Source of the DNA: Sialis fuliginosa
Taxonomy: Eukaryota; Arthropoda; Insecta; Megaloptera; Sialidae
Direction: 5' to 3'
DNA length: 64,000 nt
NCBI GenBank assembly: GCA_961205875.1
Contig: OY540819.1
Span: 3,164,501-3,228,500, forward strand
Shown here: in pieces, positions 7,232 through 63,511 of the stretch
Position numbering within the stretch: the stretch's first letter is position 1
Layout of the letters: each line of letters begins with the position of its first letter
Translations under genes and position numbers: made by a program
The notes under the pieces: generated by a model
What the model was told of the DNA's origin: nothing
Database searches by the model: none
What the model saw: the letters and a program-made list of their open reading frames with translations, nothing else

Positions 7232-7670
7232 TGTGTGTGATAGTAGCGGCCCACAGGCGGTTGTAGCGCGGACGTTCCAAACAGGACTGGAATAGGCTGG
7301 GCGTATATTTTAATGGGGCCTTTATGTAAAATGTATTTAGTGTGATAGTATAGTTGCTATAATCGATAAGTGACTCAGACTGTATTTAATGTGATAGTAG
7401 TGGCCCACAGGCGGTTGTAGCGCGGAGGTTCCAAACAGGACTGGAATAGGCTGGGCGTATATTTTAATGGGGCCTTTATGTAAAATGTATTAAGTGTGAT
7501 AGTATAGTTGCTATAAGCGATAAGTGTCTCAAGCTCTATTTAATGTGATAGTCGTGGCCCAAAAGTGATTGTGGCGCGGAAGTTTCGAACAAGACTGGAA
7601 TAGGCTAGACGTATATTTTAATGGGGCTTTTTATGAAAAATGTATTTAGTGTGGTAGTTGTAGCTATAGG
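7232..7670 (+). repeat. 154-bp tandem repeat, about 2.8 copies
   Basis: The anchor TAGTAGCGGCCCACAGG and its variants start at 7241, 7395 and 7549, giving an exact period of 154 bp. Each unit contains the GGCGGTTGTAGCGCGG-type block, AACAGGACTGGAATAGGCT and ATTTTAATGGGGCC. Units 1 and 2 are nearly identical; unit 3 is clearly more diverged. Non-coding, minisatellite-like. Confidence 0.8.
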
Positions 7671-8708
7671 TTTGAAATCAAGGGGACTGTAAGAAAAAAT
7701 GATTTGAATAAATGTTATTGGTTTTCAAGGGAGAAATAAGATGGTGATATTTTTAACATTGATTTACAAATAGAAAAATGTTTTTATTTCGGAATCTTAT
7801 TCTGTTGGAAAAAATCTATTGAAGAACATATTTTTTTCTGAGACATCTATTTTTTATGATATTTAACAAAATAATTACCGATTTTAGAAAATTTTACTTA
7901 TTTAAGTAATAAATTAATTAAATAATTAAATTACAAGATGATGTATCAAAAAACAAAAAAAACATGTTTGATTTTTCAAATAAAATAATATTCTGAAATA
8001 AAAAATATAGGTTTCTGTTAAAAAAAGTAATATTCATCTTCAAAAATACAGTTCTGATGGTGATTTCCACCAATGTTTCGGCTCACAATGCAATCACTGT
8101 ATTTAGAGCTTTAAAACTTGGTAAACCAAATAAAATTATAAAGACTACCTTACAGAAATATGAACAGATAAGGTAAAATAATTGTTTACCAAATTATTAA
8201 TAAAATAAATTGTAAATACAGTCCCGTATTTCGCAGATTTTCTTAAACTGGCTTCGACCCTGTACTATAGACTATAGTAGTGCTAAAAAGAGAGAAGGGG
8301 TAGAGGGGGTGACAAGGTCGAGCCACAACCCCTAGACGCTATCTACTGTTCGCATGTGTTCGCCGTTTCGACTGCTCGTTATCACACGATTACAACTCTC
8401 TTTGGCGTTCAAAGTATTAACTTTACACACACGCCCCCTCCCTCCTAGTTAACGGGAAGCTGTTTTAGATTTCCATACAGTAGTGGTACCGGTTATTGAT
8501 TATTTTATCTCGTATGCAAGCGCGCGATTTTGTTGGACAGATAAATTGATATGTGTGTGCGATTGGTATGCCGTTAAATTTTCATGCTGCTGCTGATGCT
8601 TGAAAAATTTATTTTATGTGTATATGAAATGCTCGTAAAAAGGGGAACCGATTTTTTTTTGATACTGTTGTAATTTTGCTATGTATTTTGCTTTCTTATT
8701 ATTTATAT
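7671..8708. other. Intergenic DNA with one richer patch
   Basis: AT-rich to about 8240. At 8250-8500 there is a more balanced, apparently unique stretch (around GACAAGGTCGAGCC and TGTTCGCCGTTTCGAC). No frame, splice pattern or known repeat supports a gene. Confidence 0.35.
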
Positions 8709-8847
8709 ACTAGCGGACTTGCCCGCGGCTTCGCCCGCGTTGTGTAATTTTTTTATGTTGGCAGTACTAATAATATTTTCAGACAGGGGATGTAATATAA
8801 ATTTTTATTTTTTTGTTTTTTATTCATCATACAGTGTAACCTTAATA

Positions 8848-11320
8848 CACTGCTTGTCACAATTAGTGGGACACTTTTTCAATGTAACACAGTTTTGGTA
8901 AAAATTGTCATATTAATATGAAAATTCATAAAAATCATTAGTGTGGTGTTGTATCAAAGCCCAAAGAGTAAAAACTTTGTGCGTGCATCGATAGCGGGTG
9001 TACAACCCTTGGAGGGGTGAAAAATGGAAAGTGACAATTTCAAGTATTGAAAAAAAAGTTTAAAAACTGTTTATTTCAAGATAATGATAAAATTCACATT
9101 AATTTTTATACGTAGAACTTATTTGAACCCTAAAGGTATAAACTATATTTTTAAATCAATATTTAATTCTATTTATCACCTGTTATCATCCCCTAAATTT
9201 AGGTTATTAGAAATATAGGAAAATATGAAAGAAATTTTAAAAATCTTCAAGGGTTGTTAGAAATAATCATAATAAATATAAATTTACAATTTCAATAAAA
9301 TCCAGTAATTTTCAACCACTTTTCTACCCTTTAATATTCAACCCCCTGTGTATTACAATTAATTCGAACAACGTAGGTAAAGATAAATTTTTGAAATTTA
9401 CAAAATAGGTAGTAAACAGTATACACAACGGTACTGTATGTTAAAAAACACAAATAAATTATAAGGGTAGGCATCAACCCTTAAATACTAAACCGCCCCA
9501 AATAATAGGGTAGAATATTAAATTTCAGTGTGATTTTATAAGAAATCAATTAATGCTCTTATTTGAAGATTTTTGTGAAAATTTTGTGCACCACAATTCA
9601 CCCCTACGGATGTAGCTACCCTAAATTTAAAAAATATACACTTTTTTTAAAACATCGTATCTAAAAATTCAGTGGAATTTTTTTATCATCCTTTCTTAAT
9701 ATAAAAGGTCGATATTTGATCTTTCTACACCGGTAAAATTAAAACAATACACTATCAGGAACTACCCTTAAATTATTATTTCTTAAAAATAAAATAAATT
9801 TTATTTCAATTAATATTGAAAATTTAGGTATCTATGGAAATTAATGGACAATTTACGAGTTTTTCATAAGTTTGACTCAAATTAATTCAATCGTTCTGAG
9901 ACGTTGAAATTTACTGAATGTGTTATAAAGTGTGTATACAACAGAATTGTATGTTAAAAAACACAAATAAATTTTAAGGGTAGTCATCAACCCTTAAAAA
10001 CTAAATCACCCCCGATAATAGGATTGTAAATTAAATTCAATTGCGATTTTATGAAATATCAATTAAAGCTGTTATTTGACAATTTTTTTGAAAATTTTGT
10101 GCACCACAATTCACCCCTACGGATATAGGTACCCTCAATTTAAAAAAATATACACATTTTTTTAAATATGGTATCTAGACAGTCCGTGGTATTTTTGTTT
10201 CATCCTTTCGTAATATAAAAGGCTGACATTTGTTCTTTCGTTACCGGTAAAATTAAAACAATACATTATCAGAAACGTGTCAAAACGATTGGATTAATTT
10301 GAGCCAAACTCGTAAATTGTCCATTAATTTCCATAGATACCTAAATTTTCAATATTAATTGAAATAAAATTTATTTTATTTTTAAGAAATAATAATTTAA
10401 GGGTAGTTCCTGATAGTGTATTGTTTTAATTTTACCGGTGTAGAAAGATCAAATATCGACCTTTTATATTAAGAAAGGATGATAAAAAAATTCCACTGAA
10501 TTTTTAGATACGATGTTTTAAAAAAAGTGTATATTTTTTAAATTTAGGGTAGCTACATCCGTAGGGGTGAATTGTGGTGCACAAAATTTTCACAAAAATC
10601 TTCAAATAAGAGCATTAATTGATTTCTTATAAAATCACACTGAAATTTAATATTCTACCCTATTATTTGGGGCGGTTTAGTATTTAAGGGTTGATGCCTA
10701 CCCTTATAATTTATTTGTGTTTTTTAACATACAGTACCGTTGTGTATACTGTTTACTACCTATTTTGTAAATTTCAAAAATTTATCTTTACCTACGTTGT
10801 TCGAATTAATTGTAATACACAGGGGGTTGAATATTAAAGGGTAGAAAAGTGGTTGAAAATTACTGGATTTTATTGAAATTGTAAATTTATATTTATTATG
10901 ATTATTTCTAACAACCCTTGAAGATTTTTAAAATTTCTTTCATATTTTCCTATATTTCTAATAACCTAAATTTAGGGGATGATAACAGGTGATAAATAGA
11001 ATTAAATATTGATTTAAAAATATAGTTTATACCTTTAGGGTTCAAATAAGTTCTACGTATAAAAATTAATCTGAATTTTATCATTATCTTGAAATAAACA
11101 GTTTTTAAACTTTTTTTTCAATACTTGAAATTGTCACTTTCCATTTTTCACCCCTCCAAGGGTTGTACACCCGCTATCGATGCACGCACAAAGTTTTTAC
11201 TCTTTGGGCTTTGAAACAACACCATACTAATGATTTTTATGAATTTTCATATTAATATGACAATTTTTACCAAAACTGTGTTACATTGAAAAAGTGTCCC
11301 ACTAATTGTGACAAGCAGTG
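8848..11320. mobile_element. 2,473-bp Tc1/mariner-type fold-back palindrome
   Basis: Termini are CACTGCTTGTCACAATTAGT and its reverse complement, flanked by TA at 8846-8847 and 11321-11322. The left arm (8848-9862) and right arm (10306-11320) are both exactly 1,015 bp with no length difference. By eye they differ at only a few bases. The 443-bp spacer (9863-10305) holds a diverged direct copy of the inner arm module (about 9412-9790 versus about 9922-10283). No transposase frame exists. TA duplication and the CACTG start fit Tc1/mariner; family identity is otherwise unknown. It sits inside the left end of the pogo-like element, so it is younger than that element. Confidence 0.9.
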
Positions 11321-11534
11321 TATAACGAGCCTCAATATAACGATTTCCTCGATTTAACAAATTCGAAATCCCCTACTAAGAGCTAATGCAAAATATACCT
11401 TTATATTACGAATACATTTGTCAACAACCTCTTTATAACGAATTTTTCGATAGGTTCAGACACGTTAAATTTTTCGTAAGACAATCATAATTGTTTTTTT
11501 GCTGTTTGTCACTGTTGCTAGTTTTAAAGTTGCA

Positions 11535-11609
11535 ATGGTTGAAAAACAAAAAAGGTATTCCTTAACCGTTGCAAAGAAACGAGAAATCATTAAGTATGTA
11601 TATAGATGA
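11535..11609 (+). pseudogene. Pogo-like transposase N-terminal stub
   Basis: An ATG frame of 24 codons begins MVEKQKRYSLTVAKKREIIK and ends at a TGA. The pattern of basic residues followed by 'L T x x x K R E I I K' matches the start of the N-terminal helix-turn-helix DNA-binding domain of pogo/Tigger/CENP-B-type transposases. A complete protein of this family is several hundred residues long, so all but the first helix region is deleted. Its position inside an element with pogo-type inverted ends and TA duplication supports the call. It is not a functional gene. Confidence 0.65.
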
Positions 11610-12110
11610 GAATCCTACAACGAAAAAAAATAGACATCGCTACATTCTTACCTTGTTATAACGAATTGTAGACCAACCTAACCTTTATATAACAAACCTC
11701 ACTGTAACAAATTACTTGGTATAACGAATATTTTCTACTTCCCTCCAGTTTTGTTATATCGAGGTTGCAGTGTATATACAAAATCGTAAATATCTCAGAT
11801 CTTAGTTAAAAATTGCAAGAACCCATCCCCTGTCTACCTCCGCCATGTAGGGTTGAATATTATTTTGTCCAGATTTACCCTAATATTATAAACAGGTATG
11901 TAGATAAATATATCAAAATTAAAAAAAAATTAACACCTGCTTGCAATCCCTTAGGGGTTGAATTTTGGGAAATTCTGAAATAGACCTTTTCCACAAAATC
12001 TTCGACATTCAGTTGGGTAATAAAATATGCAAAAATATAAGTAACTAATTTTTAAGAACAGAAATTAATTTCAAATCATCTTAATGTTTTTAGGCTCCTT
12101 TCAATAAATC

Positions 12111-12721
12111 TCGTCTTGACCGTTGTATTTTTAACGTCACAAATTTTTAAAATTTAAATGCTATAACTTTGCGAATAAATTATAATAAATATCAATAAAA
12201 TCTAGTAAGTAACGTGTAATGTGACCGTGTGTAACATACCAAGCTCACGTTTGAGCTATTTTTCGCGTTTCATCGTCATAGCAAGACCCTGTTTTATTAA
12301 ACCCATAAAACGCTATACGAATAATTCTTTGTATAGTTCCTACGGGAACATATATATCAGAAGCACACACATACGCACATAAAAACTCATATACGTGTAG
12401 TACCTACGTCATGGTATATCGCCGGTATATTAAAATAAGGCTATTAAGTTAGTTCCCCATATGAATAAAAAATTATAGATGCCATGCTGTTGAAATATTA
12501 TGTATTAGTTTAGAATTTATATAGGTAATTGTTTTGGAAAATCATTTTAATTATGATACATAAAATTAAAAAACAAGGAGGGGTGTAAGTTAAGGCCTTA
12601 TTGGGAAAATAAGTTATGGATTTAGATATTGCTAATATCTCATTTTTATAAACTTTTATCATACTAATTTTATGAAAAATATTTTTTTTTATTTCGTACA
12701 CTTTTTACTTTTTTTATACAT
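12111..12721. other. AT-rich intergenic DNA
   Basis: Contains a short run of dinucleotides (CACACATACGCACAT near 12365). The minus-strand 63-codon frame at 12510-12701 is rich in K, I, N and Y and is not supported as a gene. Confidence 0.35.
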
Positions 12722-44934: not shown

Positions 44935-44936
44935 TA

Positions 44937-46221
44937 CACTCACGGAAATAATTAAAGGACCACTTTTATTTTTCAAAAAAATTGCTCATTTTCAAAGTAA
45001 TGCCGATAGGTCAAATATGATCCATTTTTTACTTATAGGATATGAAAATTGAAGGAAATTTTATCATCTTTTCGAATTTAGAGGTATATTTGTTTTATTA
45101 AACTTATTATTGTGACCAAATCGCGGTTTAATAAAAAATAAAAAAAATGTTTTTTTTTGCAATTTTGAAAGATACCCACGGGTATGTTAAATTTTTTTTC
45201 TAAAATTTCAAGATAACCATTTTGTAGGAAATTTGTTCAGCTTTAAAACGCTTTTTCAAATTTGTTTTATCATTTTTTGGTGTTACGATATTCGAGTTTG
45301 AATGAAAAAAGTACCAAAAAGTTTTAAACGACCATAAAGGGCCTAATGTTAGTCGCACAGAAAAGAAAAAAAAAAGAATATTAAAGCTTAAATAATCACC
45401 TATTGTTTAGTAGCATTTATAAAATGTTTAATTTTAACTTAACCCTTCAAATACGAAAAACAAAACAGTGTTCGAATTTAAATAATCCTGTAAAAATAAC
45501 CTTTTTTTAATCATAGATCTAATGTTTAAAATGTATCCAGAAATTAAGTTCTATCAAAGAATATGAAAATTAGACTTATTACCTTCTATGTGAACAAAGG
45601 TTCCAGTAAAAATCTTTTAATTTGGCTGAGAAATTGCATCTTGAATTTTTTGTATACGTTTAGGATTTGACCGTACTTTTTATAACAAGTTTTTCTTTGG
45701 GATTTTTTTTCGAAAAACAATCAATTTTTGCGAAAAATTGTAAGAAGGAAAAAGTTTTTCTTTCTTGTTAAAGAATATTAATAAATTTTTTCATATGTTT
45801 TATATCAATATTATGGGATTAAATTTATTTTTAATAGGGTACTTTTTTCATTCAAACTTGAATATCTTGGCATCAAAAAATGTGACAATCATTTTTTAAA
45901 AAGCATTTTGAAGCTGAGAAAATTTACTAAATGATGAATATCATGGAATTTTGAAAAAAAATAATCATACATCCCCGTGGGTATCTTTCAAAATTGCAAA
46001 AAAAAAAACAATTTTTTTATTTTTTATTAAACCGCGATTTGGTCACAATAATAAGTTTAATAAAACAAATATACCCCTAAATTCGAAAAGATGATAAAAT
46101 TTCCTTCAATTTTCATATCCTATAAGTAAAAAATGGATCATATTTGACCTATCGGCATTACTTTGAAAATGAGCAATTTTTTCAAAAAATAAAAGTGGTC
46201 CTTTAATTTTTTCCGTGAGTG
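44937..46221. mobile_element. 1,285-bp Tc1/mariner-type fold-back element
   Basis: Termini CACTCACGGAAATAATTAAA and ...TTTCCGTGAGTG, with TA at 44935-44936 and 46222-46223. The outer approximately 220-240 bp of the two arms are near-identical by eye. The inner approximately 140 bp (to the block GAATGAAAAAAGTACC) are still clearly complementary but much more diverged. A spacer of about 500 bp follows. No transposase is encoded. CACTCACGG with TA is a familiar Tc1-like start. Confidence 0.88.
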
Positions 46222-46223
46222 TA

Positions 46224-50302: not shown

Positions 50303-53015
50303 TTGTTGTGTATTCATATTCTTTCCTAATCTAAGGTTTTAAGGCTTCCGCCATGATAAGATTAATGATTAATATTATAAAAAAATCTCGTCTGTGTGTA
50401 ACATCACTAATTTCCTTAAGAAATGATTGATTATTTTGTTATGAAAATTAGAGATCCGATCTAAATTAACAAAAAACTAAAAATCGTTAGAAAAATTATA
50501 TGTACACTGTAGATACTACTTTTTTGTAGAGATAGTGTTAAATTAATATTATGTACATAATTATATATGATTTATGTGTTATAATAATTTATTTTGATTT
50601 ATTATCAAACAAAACAAATTAAGTATTAACAAGATAATTTTCTAAAACATAAACATAAATAATATTTTTTAACTTTATTATTTATTATGGCAGAGTCAGA
50701 GTTGCAACATATTTGTGAAGTTTAAGTAAAAATTATGTGTACTTACTATGTATGTTGCATATATAAACAATAAACATGTAAACATACAGTGGCAGCTCCA
50801 ATATAAATATAAAAAGGAGACACCATAAAATTAATATTCGTTACATAAACGTACCTACCCCCATCCCATGTTAATATGCAGGCTCGGTTTATGTAGTTTT
50901 TTTCTTGATTTAAAAAAAACTTATTGGAGCGTTTATTAAAATTTAGATACCTAAAAATCTACGCCACTGTACTGTCAAGTTTTTTTTACATAGCAAAAAA
51001 AAATAGAAAAATATCATTAGCTAGAGGCTAGAAGGGTACCAAAAGCTGATGAAGGTTGAAAACTATTGACTTAAATCATTGTTAATAATAAAAGGATTGA
51101 AAATCTATTTTATTTATTCTTTTCCTGAAATAAAATATTATTGGTTTGTTTTATAAAAAAATAAATTACTTGATTAAGTAACTCTGTTATTTTTTATTTT
51201 TATAAGCAGTCTCATATTATGTCAATATATAGACCATATACAGGGTGGAGATTCTAACTAAATTATATAAGATTATTTAAGATTATAATTTCCTCAATGC
51301 TTTGAATTGTTTTACAATTCTTTTATAAATATTGTAAAAAACAATAAAATTGTAAATAATCCTGTATTTTTAGTAACTAATTATACGTTTATGGTATTTA
51401 TAAATAATTGTTATCAGATAAAAATAAATAACTCAAATAGCAACTAATTTATAGACCGTAATAACAGTTTTGTTTTTAATAAAACAAATAATAAATATAA
51501 AATATGGCTTTTTATCTTGGTTCATGTAATAGTGGAAAATAAAACTATAAAGTGACTTTTTATGTAAAGAAATAAAATTAATTCTGTAGACATGCACATA
51601 AATAAATAAGTAGGTATTGTGAAAATAATATAATTGTTTGTATAGAGCCAGGTTTATATGTGTAAGCATATAATATACTGAAATATAAACTGATAATGCC
51701 AGTTATTTATTATAGGTTTAAGAATTTCGAGTTGATTTTGAAGTTTTAAATTTTAATAATTTTTTCGCTAAACAATACTTATAAAATAGTTGTTATTTGA
51801 ATATTAATTAATTTTTCGAACGAACTCATATTATTTTTTTCTAACTCAAAAATGGCGCCTGTAGGGGGCTAAAAGCAGTGTTTTATTTTGTCCCAACCCC
51901 TCTAACTCTGTAACTACCGGCTCAAAAAATCTGAAAAAAATTTGGTAACGAGGCTTTGGTGGGACTACCAACGACAAATACTAAAGTCAACAATATAATT
52001 TTAAATTTTGGAATTATAGGGAGGGGCGTCATAGAATTTTTTATTTTGATATCTAGGCATGTGGTATGTCAAAATATAGATCTCAATTAGTAGAACTTGA
52101 CATTTTTTTATATTTTAACTTTAACTTAAAAATGCACCTGTAAGTGGTTCCAAACATTTCACTTAGTATGTCTTGTCCGAATTATTTTATTTGATTAAGG
52201 TATTATGATAATGTAAATATTATTTATTATGTGTGAAATATTTTTTTCGGTTTTTGTATTTATTTTTTCTTTTGTGACGGAACAATGTATACAAAAATAT
52301 AATTATTATGTGGGGTTATGTCATTTATTTATTTTGTTTTTAAATTAATGTACTTACATAATCACTATAATTACTAAAATTGACAAAGTTGGCAACCTTA
52401 TTAATTAATACATTTTAAAAAGTTTAAGGGGTGTGCATTTTATGGCCAAACCATGCTATTTGTTTTTATTTCTATTAAAGCCATTGAACTGCGTTGTTCT
52501 TTATCTGAACTGTTGAACAACAAAAGACAAATGATTTGTACATTTTGAGATTGATACGCAAATGGACTGGTGTGTGTAATTGGGCTGAATTCAGCTCGCG
52601 GCTTATTTTGATTAAGAACATTGATTAATACGAAGTTAATAGAGTTACATGATTAATTCAATAATTGATTTGAGTGCTGGATAAAATTATACCGGCGGCT
52701 TATTTAATAATTCCTAGTAATAAATATTTTAGATTGAATTTGATGAAATTACACGATAACCCTGTAAAAGGTATAATTATCTTGATTTTTTTTGGTATGT
52801 ATTTATAATATAGTAGAGCATAGAAATTTAACAGCTTTTTGTTTTACATATAACAATAATGGTCGTTAAAATTACAAGATTATATTATTATTTTTATCAA
52901 CAAATAGCAATTTTTAGTTTCGTTTTTTGGATGAGTTAGTATTGTATATAAGGACACGCATTTGGATGTATATTTATGTGAATTTTTTTATAATTTTTAA
53001 TCATAGAAGAAAATA
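50303..53015. other. Long AT-rich interval without genes
   Basis: Simple, A/T-biased sequence. At 51835-52190 there is a repeat-like stretch (AAAATGGCGCCTGTAGGGGG, then GTCTTGTCCGAATTATTTTA, the latter shared with 20030). 52570-52700 has several GATTAAT cores in a row. A minus-strand 78-codon frame (51433-51669) is compositionally chance-like. Confidence 0.4.
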
Positions 53016-53507
53016 AAACAGCCAAGTGCGTGTTGGGCACGCACATGATAGGTTTCCGTAGTCATTACGATTTATAAACAATATTTTTTTTATCAACTAT
53101 TCTAGCTACAGTGTTTGTTATAATTTTCATTGAAGATTGAGATTTTTTGCATCGATAGTTTTAAAAGTAGAAGATGGGAGAGGACGCTTTGATAACGACA
53201 TTTAAATGCAAATATATCGTGACTGAAGGGTTAAAATCAAAATGTCATATAACATTTTTTATTGCATTTTAAGAGATCTATCTAATGACCCCCCACTCAA
53301 TGGGGTAAGTGAAAAAAAAATGTGAGTTCACTTTTCAGTCTATGGAAAGGGGGTCCAAAAAAATGTTTTTTTCAAAAATCTTATCATTTCTTTTTTTGTG
53401 TTATCAGTCTTCGTCCGTATACCTAATTTCATCTTAATCGACTTACATTTTTTGAGGGCGGACATGGCGAAACTATAAGGTTTCCTAGTGTTCTACGGAA
53501 ACCTAAA
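53016..53507 (+). repeat. Repeat family E, copy 3 (short form)
   Basis: Starts AACAGCCAAGTGCGTGTTGG, with a left hairpin GTGCGTG/CACGCAC. It has one internal module and ends with the right hairpin AGGTTTCC...GGAAACCT (53478-53504). Confidence 0.7.
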
Positions 53508-54057
53508 AAGGCTTATTTTGTGTAATTTGAAGCATCCGTATTAAGTAAATTTCTTTACTATTGTATTTCTCGTAAATGATTAATGCTATGAACCATTACC
53601 AAAGTACATTTTTGTGTGTTTTATGTCATAATAATCTTATAAAAATGCCAAATTCAGGAAAAAAATTAAGAACAAAAAATACTAGACTAAAAATAAAAGA
53701 GCCCACTGACTCCATGCACTTCTGGCCTAAATAATCATTGATTGATACTGGAAATAGATAACACGTATAGATACTAAAATTATTGTCGGATTTTATTACT
53801 TTATCACAATGAGGTTTCAAGATATTAAATAAAAACTTATTTTAGAAAAAACCTTTGGAGGTATGTACCTCCCACACAAAGAATTTACGAACTATTCATG
53901 TTTTTTTCACCTGATATAATTTAACCTGTATAGTTTTGTCAATTATAGTGACAGAAGAAATCGAGAATCGAATCAAATTAAAAAAAATGAATTATAACTT
54001 CAATAATTGCTGTGAAAATTGTAATTTTTAAATGAAAATATTTATTCATTAGATCGG
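53508..54057. other. AT-rich DNA between inverted E copies
   Basis: Nothing recognised; it acts as the loop between two inverted family E copies. Confidence 0.35.
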
Positions 54058-54756
54058 TTTTTAAGTTTCCGTAGAAAACTAGGAAACCTTATAATTTCGC
54101 CATGTCCGTCCGTCCTCAAAAAATTTAAGCCGATTAAGATGTAATTTGGTATACAGACGAAGACTGATAACCTAAAAACAGAAATGATAATATTTTTGAA
54201 AAAAATTTTTTTTGACCCCCTTTCCATAGACTGAAAAGTATTTTCAAAAAAATATTTTCACTTAATCCATTAAGTGGGGTGTCTTTAGATAGGTCTCCTA
54301 AAATGCAATAAAAAATGCAATATCACATTTTGATTTTAACCCTTCAGTCACGATATATTTGCGTTTCAAGTCGTTATAAAAGCGTCCCCCCCACCCTAAT
54401 TTCTAAACTATCAATTTAAAAAATCTGAAAAAATTCATGAATGTAGCCTTTAATTAATACTTCCACTGAAAAGTATAACGAACACTGTCAAAATTATTTT
54501 GGACCCCCTGCCATAGACTGAAAATTGTACTCAAATTTTTTTCACTTACCCCATTGAGTGGGATATCTTTAGATAGGTCTCCTAAAATGCAACAAAAAAT
54601 GTTATATGACTTTTGATTTTAACCCTTCAGTCACGATATATTTGCATTTAAATGTCGATATCAGAGCGTCCGTTGAAATAACTCTTGTTTATAAAACGTA
54701 ATGACTACGGAAACCTATCATGTGCGTGCCCAACACGCACTTGGCCGTTTTATTTA
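54058..54756 (-). repeat. Repeat family E, copy 4 (long form)
   Basis: Inverted relative to copy 3. It begins with the hairpin around TTTCCGTAGAAAACTAGGAA, then GTCCGTCCGTCC. It has two internal modules in tandem, offset by about 260 bp (CATAGACTGAAAA, GATAGGTCTCCTAAAATGCA, TTTTAACCCTTCAGTCACGA in each). It ends CCAACACGCACTTGGCCGTT. Confidence 0.7.
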
Positions 54757-56872: not shown

Positions 56873-57571
56873 CCCGGGAAAAAATTTCAGATCTGAAGTG
56901 ATCTCGGTTGATCTTCATTTTGGAACAAATCAGATCTTTATAAATAAATAAACTTTTGTCTACCTTAAATAACAAATACACATATACTACCTATATAGAA
57001 ACCTTGTTTATAATTGAATCAATTAAAAAAAAATTGTACAGAAACGTATTGAATGATATTTGAGGCCCGTGTATTAAATTAATAAATAAATTCACAACTC
57101 ACCCCCTGTCACAGATTAAGGGTTGTAATTGGTCTCATTCGATCCAGCGGGAAAAATACTTCGGGATATTAGGGGTGTAGGGGGCAAAACAACCCTCTAT
57201 ATAGCACAGGAGTCGAGATATTTACGATTTTCTATAATGAATACCATAAGTAGCGAAACAGAAATATTCACCTAGTATCCCGAAGTATTTTTCCCGCTAG
57301 ATCGAATGAGACCAATTACAACCCTTCATCTGTGACAGGGGGTGTGTTGTGAATTTATTTATTAATTTAATACACGGGCCTCAAATATCATTCAATACGT
57401 TTCTGTACATTTTTGTTTTAATTGATTAAATTATAAACAAGGTTTATATATAGTATATGTGTATTAATTTGTTATTTAAGGTAGACAAAAGTTTATTTAT
57501 CTACAAAGATCTGATTTGTTCCAAAATGAAGATCAACCGAGATCACTTCAGATCTGAAATTTTTTCCCGGG
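56873..57571. mobile_element. 699-bp fold-back palindrome with CCCGGG ends
   Basis: The left arm begins CCCGGGAAAAAATTTCAGAT and the right arm ends with its complement. Arms of roughly 295-300 bp (56873-57172 and 57277-57571) match throughout, including AGATCTGATTTGTTCCAAAA and TCGAATGAGACCAATTACAA on the right side. The spacer is about 100 bp. No clear target duplication, so the superfamily is unknown. The 77-codon frame at 57457-57690 runs off the right arm and is incidental. Confidence 0.8.
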
Positions 57572-57979: not shown

Positions 57980-58305
57980 TGTCCGGTATCATAAAGGACC
58001 TAACAAATTTGTTAGCTAGCAAGCACTTTCAACTGAGATATCAAACTTATATGACAGTTCTTTTGGAGTTCGTTGATGACTTTGACAAGTTTCGCGTTGT
58101 AGGTAAATATAAACGGTATTAAAACAGTGGTGATGTTATGAAAATTATTTTGTACGGTCAAAGATGCCAACTGTGTTACAATTAGTTGAAGTATTACTGC
58201 TCTAAATTCCATAACTAATCCATAGATACTAGTACAGAATTAATACCCCATTTGAATGTAATTGCTAGCTAGCAAATTTTGTTAGGTATTTTATAATACC
58301 GGACA
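57980..58305 (+). mobile_element. MITE family H, copy 1 (326 bp)
   Basis: Inverted termini TGTCCGGTAT(C/T)ATAAA extend, with mismatches, through CTAACAAATTTG and GCTAGCTAGCAA for about 55 bp. The 3-bp duplication TTA is at 57977-57979 and 58306-58308, compatible with PIF/Harbinger. Copy 2 is at 58974 and copy 3 at 63936. Confidence 0.75.
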
Positions 58306-58308
58306 TTA

Positions 58309-58973
58309 GTAGCACAAACATTGGTACCTTTTTGATTGAATTATTATAACATCGATTCTTGTAAAAATGGAGATAATTACCTTAAAACTTTATTTGAAAA
58401 TAAGTAATTTTTCAAGTCACCCTCAGCGAATCCCTTTGTGTAAAAAATTCTGCATCGTATGAAAAATAACCAGGTCATGCGAAAAAACGCGTCAACAAAT
58501 TAAAAATCATGAAAATATTTTATAGATTATACTGAATAGAACCCATTAGTATCGGAATATGGATGATTTTTTTACGAAAATTATTTTTTTTTAAAGAAAC
58601 AATTTTATTGATAATTTCCTTATTCTGTAACACTGGTAATAAAAAATTAATATTTTGTTTGTTGCAAGACTTGAATAGACGATCCTGAAGGTCTTTGATG
58701 TGCTGAAACCGAATCCATTGCTGAAATTTTTTCAATTAGTCCAGATTATTGATATATCGTAACCTGAAAGTGCACTTTTTATCTAAAGTATTCTACTATT
58801 TCCTCCTTTAAAAGAAACGTTTACTTACTTGCAACAAAAATGAAATTGACGTGTAATTTGTAATAGAATTTATTGCAAAAACTGATTTACTCACCTTCCA
58901 AACGCTGCAGAATTTTTGGAGAAAGAAATTTTCTGGAAGAACCTGAAATATTACTTACATTTATGTCCGGTAT
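58309..58973. other. AT-rich intergenic DNA
   Basis: Nothing recognised. The minus-strand 71-codon frame at 58520-58735 is rich in K, I and N and is not supported. Confidence 0.35.
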
Positions 58974-59235
58974 TATAGAGGAGCTAACAAATTTGCAAAC
59001 CTGCAAGCACTTTCAAACGGGGTACTAATTCTGTGATAGTATCTATGGATTAGTTATGAAATTTAGAGCAGTGATACTTCAACTTATTATAATACAGCAG
59101 CCAACTCTGATCCTACAAAATAAGTTTCATAATATCGCCACTGTTTTAATACCGTTGGTGTTTACTTACCATGCGTGCACGTATTATCAAATACTTCATG
59201 AAACTTCAAGGGAACTGTCAGATAGGTTTGTTTTA
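58974..59235 (-). mobile_element. MITE family H, copy 2 (truncated)
   Basis: Begins TGTCCGGTATTATAGAGGAG and follows copy 1 in inverse orientation without length changes over much of the middle. It stops near 59235 before the second terminus. Confidence 0.65.
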
Positions 59236-60321: not shown

Positions 60322-61678
60322 TTTATAGAATTTCACAAAAAAGATTGTATACTTTCACATAACACGAGATAAAAAAAATGAAGCAGTTTTGAGATACATA
60401 TTACCCACACTTCCACTCGATTTTGATGATTTTTATATGAGACTAAATACTAGCCAGACCCAACTAACAAACCAAATTTCAATAAAATCCGTACAGTGGT
60501 TCAGAATAAAGATATGGAATGAAAAGTGTTTTTACCTGAATGTTCAAATGAAAATTTTGTAAGCTTTGTACTGTTTTAAAGTTTGTGTAAAAAAATTGGT
60601 GATGTTTTTTTTTTGATATATTTACTGATTCCAAAAAGATTAAAAAATCAAATTTGACCACCCACATAAAAATCTATAATTTTTCTATTAATTGAAAAAT
60701 ATCACCGATTTGTTAAAATTTAAGTTCCAAATATTTGAGATAATGATCTACGATTTTAGATCTAAAAGTTTTATTACTTACTATATCTGACTTAAGTAGC
60801 TTTAAATAATCCTAAAAGATAATCTATGGAATTTAAACACAATTAATAAAAATTCTATACATCCCACATAGTCATTTAAATTAGATATTTTTATATCCAA
60901 TTATTGAAAGATAAGATTATCAATTAATTGACATTAATATTCCCATATCTCACATAACCTTTAAAGTATTTTATAATTAGTTAAATATGTTGACAATATT
61001 TGTTCATTAAATTAAAAATATTTTATTACAGATGTATTATTTTTCTTTATATTTCAACACCTGCTTATTTTTTGTATGAATGTTCCTTTTTTGTGTGTTA
61101 ATATACTAATAATTGACAGACAAGAAAATTAAAAATAAAATATACTGATTAATGAAACCTTCTTGGGTTTTTTTTACAAATCATATAATTTAAATTAAAT
61201 GAAATTATAAGTAATCACAGTGGTGTGGTGTTCTTTATTCAATTTTTTTCAGATTTATCCGTCAATTAGTTTATTTTTTCTAGTCATACATAAATTGAGG
61301 TGCAGTAGAACAAAATTTGATAAACCCACTTAGAACCAAGGTAATTTTTTTTCGATTTGGCATTTTCGACCATCACCAAAGATCAAATATTGCTAAAACC
61401 CCTTTAAAAATGGCCTTGAAAACGTGTGTCGTAACAAAAGCTAACAAATCCAGTATAAACAGACAGACAAAGTTTGTGTGCGATTATTACGTTAAAATTT
61501 CGTTGCCAAAATGTGCCTAATTGATTAAAATGTTTAATTATTGTTGTTTTCTTTCACTTACAACTTTTGCCATTACAGGTTATGAAACATCATAAATGTG
61601 GATAAATCCAACAAAACCAGATATCATTTTTTTTAAAGTTATCCATCTTCCAACTTGTGCAAAGACGCTAGTTCAAAT
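60322..61678. other. AT-rich intergenic DNA
   Basis: 60395-60540 contains a stretch related to the conserved block of family A (TTTTGATGATTTTTATATGA, CCAGACCCAACTAACAAACC), a very decayed relative. A plus-strand 67-codon frame (61317-61520) is not recognised. Confidence 0.35.
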
Positions 61679-62695
61679 GGTTATAGCCGGGTAAGCATGC
61701 AAAACATGCCTTTACATGGATTTGGCTGATTATTTTTTTGGAAGTCACATTCTATTTAACATTCAACCTGACCAAATATTAGCTTCCAAAAATTTATAGT
61801 TTTCGAAAAAAAAATTTTTTTTTATAATCTGTCCGTCGAATTTGATGGTGCTTGAAATATATTATAGAGGTACTTATGACTCATCAGAGGTAATTTTATT
61901 ATGATCCTCTGTACATAGTAAACCAGAAAAAAAATTAATAAAATTTAAAAAATCAAAAAAGACCATGTTGTCTTCGGAAGGCAATCACAATTTTTTTATA
62001 TATTATACCTTGTGTGTACCCAAATAACATATCAAAATCCCAAATTGATACAAAGGGTATAAAAAGCAACCTATGAGAAAAAATTTGTAAAATTGATTCA
62101 ATGGAGCAGTTCCCATATATTCCCGTTTACGGCCTCTATATTTTGTTTTTGTCAGGCTATGGGCCCCGACAAATTTTCGATATGCCTCTGGGCTAGCCCA
62201 GTACTGTTTAGCAACAAATTAGAGATATTTTAAAAGTATTAAGACACTTGCACTCACCCGCGCCACGCTCGCGCCACTCCGATACGACCGCATGCGAATT
62301 TATACGAGTATGTTATACCCTTTGAATCAATTTAGGATTTTGATATGTTGTTTGGGTACATACAAGGTATAATATATAAAAAAATTGTGATTGCTCTTCA
62401 AAGACAACATGGTCTTTTTTGATTTTTTAAATTTTATTAATTTTTTTTCTGGTTTACTATGTACAGAGGATAATAATAAAATTACCTCGGATGAGTCATA
62501 AGTACCTCTATAATATATTTCAAGCACCATCAAATTCGACTGACAGATTATAAAAAAAAATTTTTTTTCGAAAACTATAAATTTTTGGAAGCTAATATTT
62601 GGTCAGGTTAAATGTTACATAGAATGTGACTTCCAAAAAAATAATCAGCCAAGTCCATGTAAAGACATGTTTTGCATGTTCACCCGGCTATAACC
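61679..62695. mobile_element. 1,017-bp fold-back palindrome
   Basis: Termini GGTTATAGCCGGGTAAGCAT and the complement of GGTTATAGCCGGGTGAACAT. Arms of about 390 bp (61679-62073 and 62307-62695) agree at about 95% by eye, including TTGGAAGTCACATTCTAT, TGGTGCTTGAAATATATTAT and GACCATGTTGTC. The 233-bp spacer is GC-richer (CACCCGCGCCACGCTCGCGC) and not palindromic. No clear target duplication; superfamily unknown; nothing encoded. Confidence 0.85.
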
Positions 62696-63511
62696 TTTGG
62701 GTATTAAAAAATTTCCACTGTACCTACCTATAACCATACTAAAATTTTAAAAAAAGTATATTAAAATAGGGTAGTTACATTTTCATCTCTCCTGTTAAAT
62801 TTGAATTTATTCATTTATTCGGTTTTGTTCTGTTGCTCCTCCTAGTATTATCCATAAATGGTAGTTATTTATAGTAAACTAAAACACTTGGTAATTAGCA
62901 GCTATTTTATTTCTCATATTTGTTAATAGTTATTCAACACAGGTTTGCTTGGAAACTAACTAAATATTATACAGTTAGTTATTTATCGCTTGAATATCAG
63001 ATCAAAGGTGTTTAATATTCACTTATTTCGGTTATAACCAATCAAACATATGGTTAATTGACAAAAAATATAACAAGAGAAATCATCAAAAATAATTGCA
63101 ATATAATGATTGTAATACACTCGTCATAATAATTGATTTTTTACAGCGCATTTACAAAATTACACCCTTGGTTATTGAGATTGATATTTTTTATATCGAA
63201 ATCTCCATTATACATAATTCATAATTTGACCATATGCTTTCGATTATAGGGTAATAAATAACGACAAATATGATATAGAGTTGTCATTTTAGCTTGACCG
63301 GTTGGCGGCTGTTGAGGTTAAACAAAAAATAATTGAGGTTTTATTTTTTGTACTTATGGCTTTTGGATGTTTCTTGATCTATGACTTTAAGTTACATATT
63401 TTCTTGATTTGAAATATTTTTTAGTTGTTATTGTATTGTGATCGGTTCCAGAGCAATTTTTTTTATTGCCAGAGAATAATAATTGCAATGGGCTGTTATT
63501 AACAATAATGT
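62696..63511. other. AT-rich intergenic DNA
   Basis: Nothing recognised. Confidence 0.35.

Follow-up and report, generated by a model that had tools for sequence, protein, structure and literature searches.

A non-autonomous fold-back transposon family whose paired arms evolve in concert within full-length copies in the Sialis fuliginosa genome

A fold-back element at positions 8848–11320 of the window, by which we mean the whole 64-kb stretch of Sialis fuliginosa DNA analysed here, raises the question of how two long inverted arms come to be almost identical when they enclose a clearly diverged internal duplication. The first-pass annotation had proposed that the inverted part arose or was homogenised recently, through gene conversion or hairpin replication. 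The left arm, or terminal inverted repeat, occupies 1,015 nt of the forward strand (8848–9862; first bases CACTGCTTGTCACAATTAGTGGGACAC), and the right arm is its inverted counterpart of equal length on the reverse strand (10306–11320). The arms pair without gaps around a 443-nt spacer (9863–10305) and their three mismatches are confined to 8943, 8953, and 9097; the equal, ungapped, and nearly identical arms described from the first reading were thus found exactly where they had been placed. Long inverted arms make up the bulk of the element (2,030 of 2,473 nt), which is the structural mark of fold-back (FB-like) elements.

Module B is found in the left arm at 9391–9762 (forward strand) and in the right arm at 10406–10777 (reverse strand). 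As had been claimed, the spacer holds a diverged direct copy of it, B′ (9904–10276, forward strand), which is 84% identical to the left-arm module with one 1-nt gap. Tandem repeats within the arms are an FB-like trait; the internal repeats here are a single diverged B/B′ pair, with B′ in the spacer. Gapless pairing of the arms stops at an 11-nt stretch (9863–9873, forward strand) that is absent across the spacer, although L075 and L078 carry it at both spacer edges among the 37 copies compared. When this indel is skipped, the inverted repeat runs about 37 nt further into the spacer at 89% identity, so that worn remnants of this inverted repeat flank B′ on either side, with C on its left side (9874–9903, forward strand) and C′ on its right (10277–10305, reverse strand).

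We searched the 392-Mb genome (20 contigs) with a 55-nt terminal pattern, allowing up to 3 mismatches, and recovered 386 matches (192 forward, 194 reverse), the equivalent of about 190 copies, compared to 0 for the reversed control pattern. Forty-one elements were then examined, namely the window copy and 40 others, of which 39 came from the best spacer matches and one was chosen separately; given this selection, mainly by spacer similarity, the sample leans towards the nearest relatives of the window copy. Full-length copies with the same layout numbered 37 of the 41, and the other four (L046, L055, L062, and L071), each with one incomplete arm, were left out of the counts. The 36 other full-length elements, together with 386 end matches against none for the control, exclude a chance origin of the inverted layout, and the elements form a new family within the known category of non-autonomous fold-back transposons. 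A 248-nt miniature of the family was also seen (L038:1501–1748), in which two terminal pieces of 120–133 nt stand back to back with no spacer between them.

The copies bear the marks of past mobility expected of the FB-like class, namely many loci, a target duplication, and an empty site. In the window, the element lies between two copies of TA (8846–8847 and 11321–11322), and TA stands on both sides of 36 of the 37 full-length copies (36 of 36 that could be scored, one having a damaged left end; L076 was left out of the duplication count). The target was mostly ATAT: of the 36 copies, 30 have A at −1 and 34 have T at +1. The 37 copies have 37 different left flanks. The window copy splits a Tigger/pogo-like element on the forward strand, with a left remnant at 8832–8845 and the remainder at 11323–11772; the Tigger label is tentative, as it draws on a 24-aa frame whose weak likeness to CENP-B_N (E = 0.042, 13.9 bits) falls under the cut-off of 21.2. 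Joining the two window flanks into a single query gave 334 first-look candidates, 40 of which were scored: 39 other places read across the joint uninterrupted at 93–96% identity, and the fortieth was the right flank of the window copy itself. Roughly 1.2 kb to the left of the fold-back element, a 154-nt unit is repeated in 2.7 tandem copies (7236–7658).

Having 37 full-length copies allowed arms to be compared within and between elements. Mean arm divergence within a copy was 1.29% (range 0.10–3.84%, n = 37), and 0.3% in the window copy, compared to 3.40% between left arms, 3.27% between right arms, and 3.35% between left and right arms of different copies; in 5,000 shuffled left/right pairings the mean never fell below 2.76%. 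The two arms of a copy were exclusive sisters in 20 of 37 cases on a midpoint-rooted tree, and 84 variants private to one element were present in both of its arms, against 241 in one arm. Among 32 elements (five whose arms mismatch at fewer than 6 sites having been left out), the longest mismatch-free run exceeded simulation in 12 at p < 0.05 and in 6 at p < 0.01, compared to 13 and 2, respectively, of 148 control pairs drawn between elements (2 of 150 left out), the count of 13 being itself slightly above chance. In L076, 21 of the 22 arm mismatches cluster at arm positions 60–446. Finally, B′ was more diverged from B than the B modules of the two arms were from each other in all 37 elements, as the first-pass annotation had asked to be checked. 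The arms evolve in concert within each of the 37 full-length copies.

Two explanations would account for similar arms with no homogenisation in the living family. An assembly or polishing artefact could have doubled or equalised one arm, since long inverted repeats are prone to mis-assembly, and some of the variants seen in both arms could stem from polishing with reads. The 37 copies with their distinct left flanks, the TA flanking 36 of them on each side, and an arm divergence that spans 0.1–3.8% instead of being zero throughout make this origin extremely improbable. Alternatively, the inverted duplication might simply be young and its arms too recent to have diverged, which the 0.3% of the window copy would fit; however, arms differ by 3.4% between copies and by 1.3% within them, and the left–left, right–right, and left–right comparisons are alike, which is not what a one-off founder duplication would give. 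We regard a young duplication as very improbable, the more so as the inner repeat speaks against it as well: identity between C and C′, a comparison of only 30 nt that makes the dating rough, is 73–90% (mean 85%) in the 37 copies, close to the 81–85% (mean 83%) between B and B′. Should C/C′ be the inner end of the arms' inverted repeat that escaped homogenisation, the inversion and the B duplication would be of about the same age. The inverted layout is thus probably old, and the earlier proposal divides accordingly: homogenisation of the arms is supported (1.29% against 3.3–3.4%), and a recent origin of the inverted part is not supported, the layout being common to all 37 full-length copies and C/C′ about as worn as B/B′.

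How the arms are matched can be judged from the mismatches that persist. Four groups of related copies have arm mismatches in common, with identical left and right alleles: the window copy and L039 (arm positions 97 and 107); L050, L053, and L057 (182, 188, 230, 904, and 936); L066 and L077 (331, 372, 800, and 859); and L042 and L043 (863, 867, 880, and 883, or four of five sites checked). Both arms therefore travel unchanged in transposition, and homogenisation is occasional and partial, which fits gene conversion and not hairpin replication at birth. Under hairpin (snap-back) replication, one arm would be copied into both whenever a new copy is made, leaving the arms identical at birth. This would account for arms that are closer within a copy than between copies, but it conflicts with the inheritance of identical left and right alleles in these four groups and with the clustering of mismatches inside arms, and we consider it highly unlikely. 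Thus, of the two processes originally put forward, replication through a hairpin at each transposition gives way to gene conversion, for which the inherited mismatches argue in an episodic form.

Individual copies add detail to the case for conversion. The window copy and L039 have identical spacers. Site 850 is the one difference between their left arms and is also among the 11 differences between their right arms, so that one of the two copies has undergone a change in both arms after their divergence. Between 406 and 908, the right arm of L039 has five sites with alleles that other copies also carry and four with private alleles. Either the right arm of the window copy was corrected from its left arm, or that of L039 was overwritten from another copy, and the four private changes favour such an import over correction of the window arm. 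The arms of L047 and L069 differ at 31 and 39 sites, respectively, several with family-common alleles on each arm and many private, and these two copies may be chimeric through exchange between copies. Overall, the evidence for repeated gene conversion from one arm to the other is good.

The element offers little to indicate a transposase of its own. The 64-kb window holds no reading frame of at least 120 aa and no recognised gene, no frame of the element exceeds 55 aa, and a profile scan of six of these frames (41–55 aa) matched no transposase family; no coding remnants were recognised in the element, its sole weak match being to DUF7588 (E = 0.023, under the cut-off of that family). Rfam at gathering thresholds gave no match in window positions 8001–12200, and the 22-nt end had no exact match in viral contigs. 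Among the 100 listed of the 386 ends, three end-to-end pairs spanning 4.1–4.7 kb were considered as an autonomous partner and rejected; they are copies that contain nested foreign inverted-repeat elements, and no frame of at least 90 aa was shown in them. Two of the nested elements are palindromes of about 2.2 and 3.3 kb (L079:1577–3779 and L080:1043–4367) that are 95–97% self-inverse, end in TAGTCC, are about 72–73% alike over about 650 nt, and are flanked by 3-nt duplications (TAA and AAA) judged by eye; a third (L081:1543–3339) has 500-nt inverted arms at 91% identity and edges the spacer of another copy.

We also inspected the flanks of nine DDE_3 elements out of 150 scored (both flanks for three, one flank for six) and found the shared ends in none of them; the best excess in this comparison, that of L092 (21, with shuffles reaching 20), gives no clear similarity. 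The first 30 nt of the fold-back element nevertheless agree with the end of one DDE_3 element of this genome at 17 of the 28 positions scored (p = 2e-5), a p-value that is optimistic because this end was read from a single flank and found by its TACAGT motif. Three other DDE_3 ends matched at 12, 11, and 10 of 28, and the intact right end of the outer Tigger-like element, used as a control, matched at 9 of 28 (p = 0.21). Two of the four DDE_3 ends compared were confirmed as inverted pairs, and the best-matching end was not among these. The TA duplication that marks Tc1/mariner elements is present in 36 of 37 copies, and the TA target, ATAT core, and CA-T start fit a Tc1-like element. Taken together, the family is probably Tc1-like, with no transposase source found among the nine DDE_3 elements inspected. 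The ends start with CACTG, and some animal CACTA elements carry short target duplications, so a CACTA-type rather than Tc1-type identity was also weighed; we consider it improbable given the uniform TA duplication, the ATAT core, and the resemblance to one DDE_3 end. A Mutator-type fold-back was rejected as well, as these duplicate about 9 bp of target and the duplication here is TA. Elsewhere in the genome, DDE_3 transposase fragments stand head to head a few hundred nucleotides apart (for example C1:33318931/33319495, C4:20906011/20906582, and C1:29146618/29147094), which suggests fold-backs built from pieces of transposase genes.

Combining these lines, we place a probability of roughly 80% on a reading of the locus as an approximately 2.47-kb non-autonomous fold-back transposon with a TA target that is mobilised by Tc1-type transposase and whose arms are kept matched by gene conversion. 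A Tc1-type transposase supplied from elsewhere would bind the terminal 30 nt or so and mobilise the element by a cut-and-paste route. Either between such events or while the gap left by excision is being repaired, one arm would serve as template for correction of the other, and conversion would stop short of C/C′ and B′, past the 11-nt heterology. As for origin, an element of the order A-B-D-C-B′ may have switched template onto its own copy behind B′, which would yield A-B-D-C-B′-(C)-(D)-(B)-(A), where B′ forms the loop.

A copy of a second fold-back family lies in the same window (44935–46223), and elsewhere in the genome this family has inverted arms of about 1,067–1,084 nt around about 160 nt. 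Its ends match those of the first family at 17 of 28 positions (p = 5e-5), and the arms of the two families show no homology beyond that of shuffled sequences (207, with shuffles reaching 222). Speculatively, the genome might repeatedly generate fold-backs, with conversion-matched arms of about 1.0–1.1 kb, out of transposons that are unrelated but have Tc1-like ends, and actively maintain the hairpin form; we hold this to be unlikely, but if true, the hairpin would be a maintained state that gives each copy two good ends, not a product of decay. The window holds further inverted-repeat elements at 61676–62698, 56873–57571, 53011–54755, and 58042–59230, whose matching arm pieces measure about 80–390 nt.

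Elements of this type are known, but arm correction is supported here by unusually direct evidence. With the equivalent of about 190 copies, one layout wherever it was checked, and graded arm divergence, the family forms a data set for measuring gene conversion between inverted repeats, together with its tract boundaries and, in the 11-nt indel, a candidate barrier; beyond this, it is an ordinary repeat family in a TE-rich genome. The arms look young and the layout is probably old, and near-identical arms consequently do not date a fold-back.

Among known systems, Tc4 of Caenorhabditis elegans is a short palindromic fold-back of the wider Tc1/mariner kind that consists almost wholly of two inverted arms. 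Its arms are about 0.77 kb and its target duplication differs from the TA seen here, and we know of no B/B′ spacer in it. The initial remark that no described family with this layout was known to its author holds in part: our literature search, in which subscription papers were thinly covered, found no description of this exact family or of its B/B′ order, but fold-backs with near-identical arms are on record for Galileo, a P-superfamily transposon of Drosophila. High within-copy arm identity is already reported there, with arms of one copy 98–100% identical and chimeric copies whose arms come from different subfamilies, in the available portion of one report (PMC3573991). In the accessible part of another, a table gives arm differences of 0.002 and 0.007 for two copies, and copies 4 and 5, whose arms differ by 0.063 and 0.057, match each other's arms (PMC2775673). 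As far as these partial sources extend, Galileo resembles our family in its long inverted arms, near-identical within a copy, and its many transposase-less copies, and L047 and L069 may parallel its chimeras. The two differ in that the arms of Galileo show wide variation in both length and structure whereas the full-length copies here keep one layout. Galileo also duplicates 7–8 bp in D. willistoni, according to the part of PMC4168063 available, and the TA duplication in 36 of 37 copies led us to reject membership of Galileo for the present family.

Two further comparisons likewise draw on portions of the sources. Long terminal inverted repeats also occur in Bari elements; these and the Bari MITEs are Tc1-mariner transposons that share the TA target, and one Bari variant has two identical long inverted repeats (PMC4877112); their arms, however, are about 255 nt and surround a transposase gene, compared to the geneless element with 1,015-nt arms described here. 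Tetris of Drosophila virilis is, like our family, a non-autonomous fold-back whose transposase source was not found, and repeats inside its arms group within the copy in two of three complete copies (PMC4079207). It differs in having only three structurally complete copies, and in that its arm repeats have been amplified into satellite arrays. The same source regards fold-back structure as having evolved independently in separate transposon lineages.
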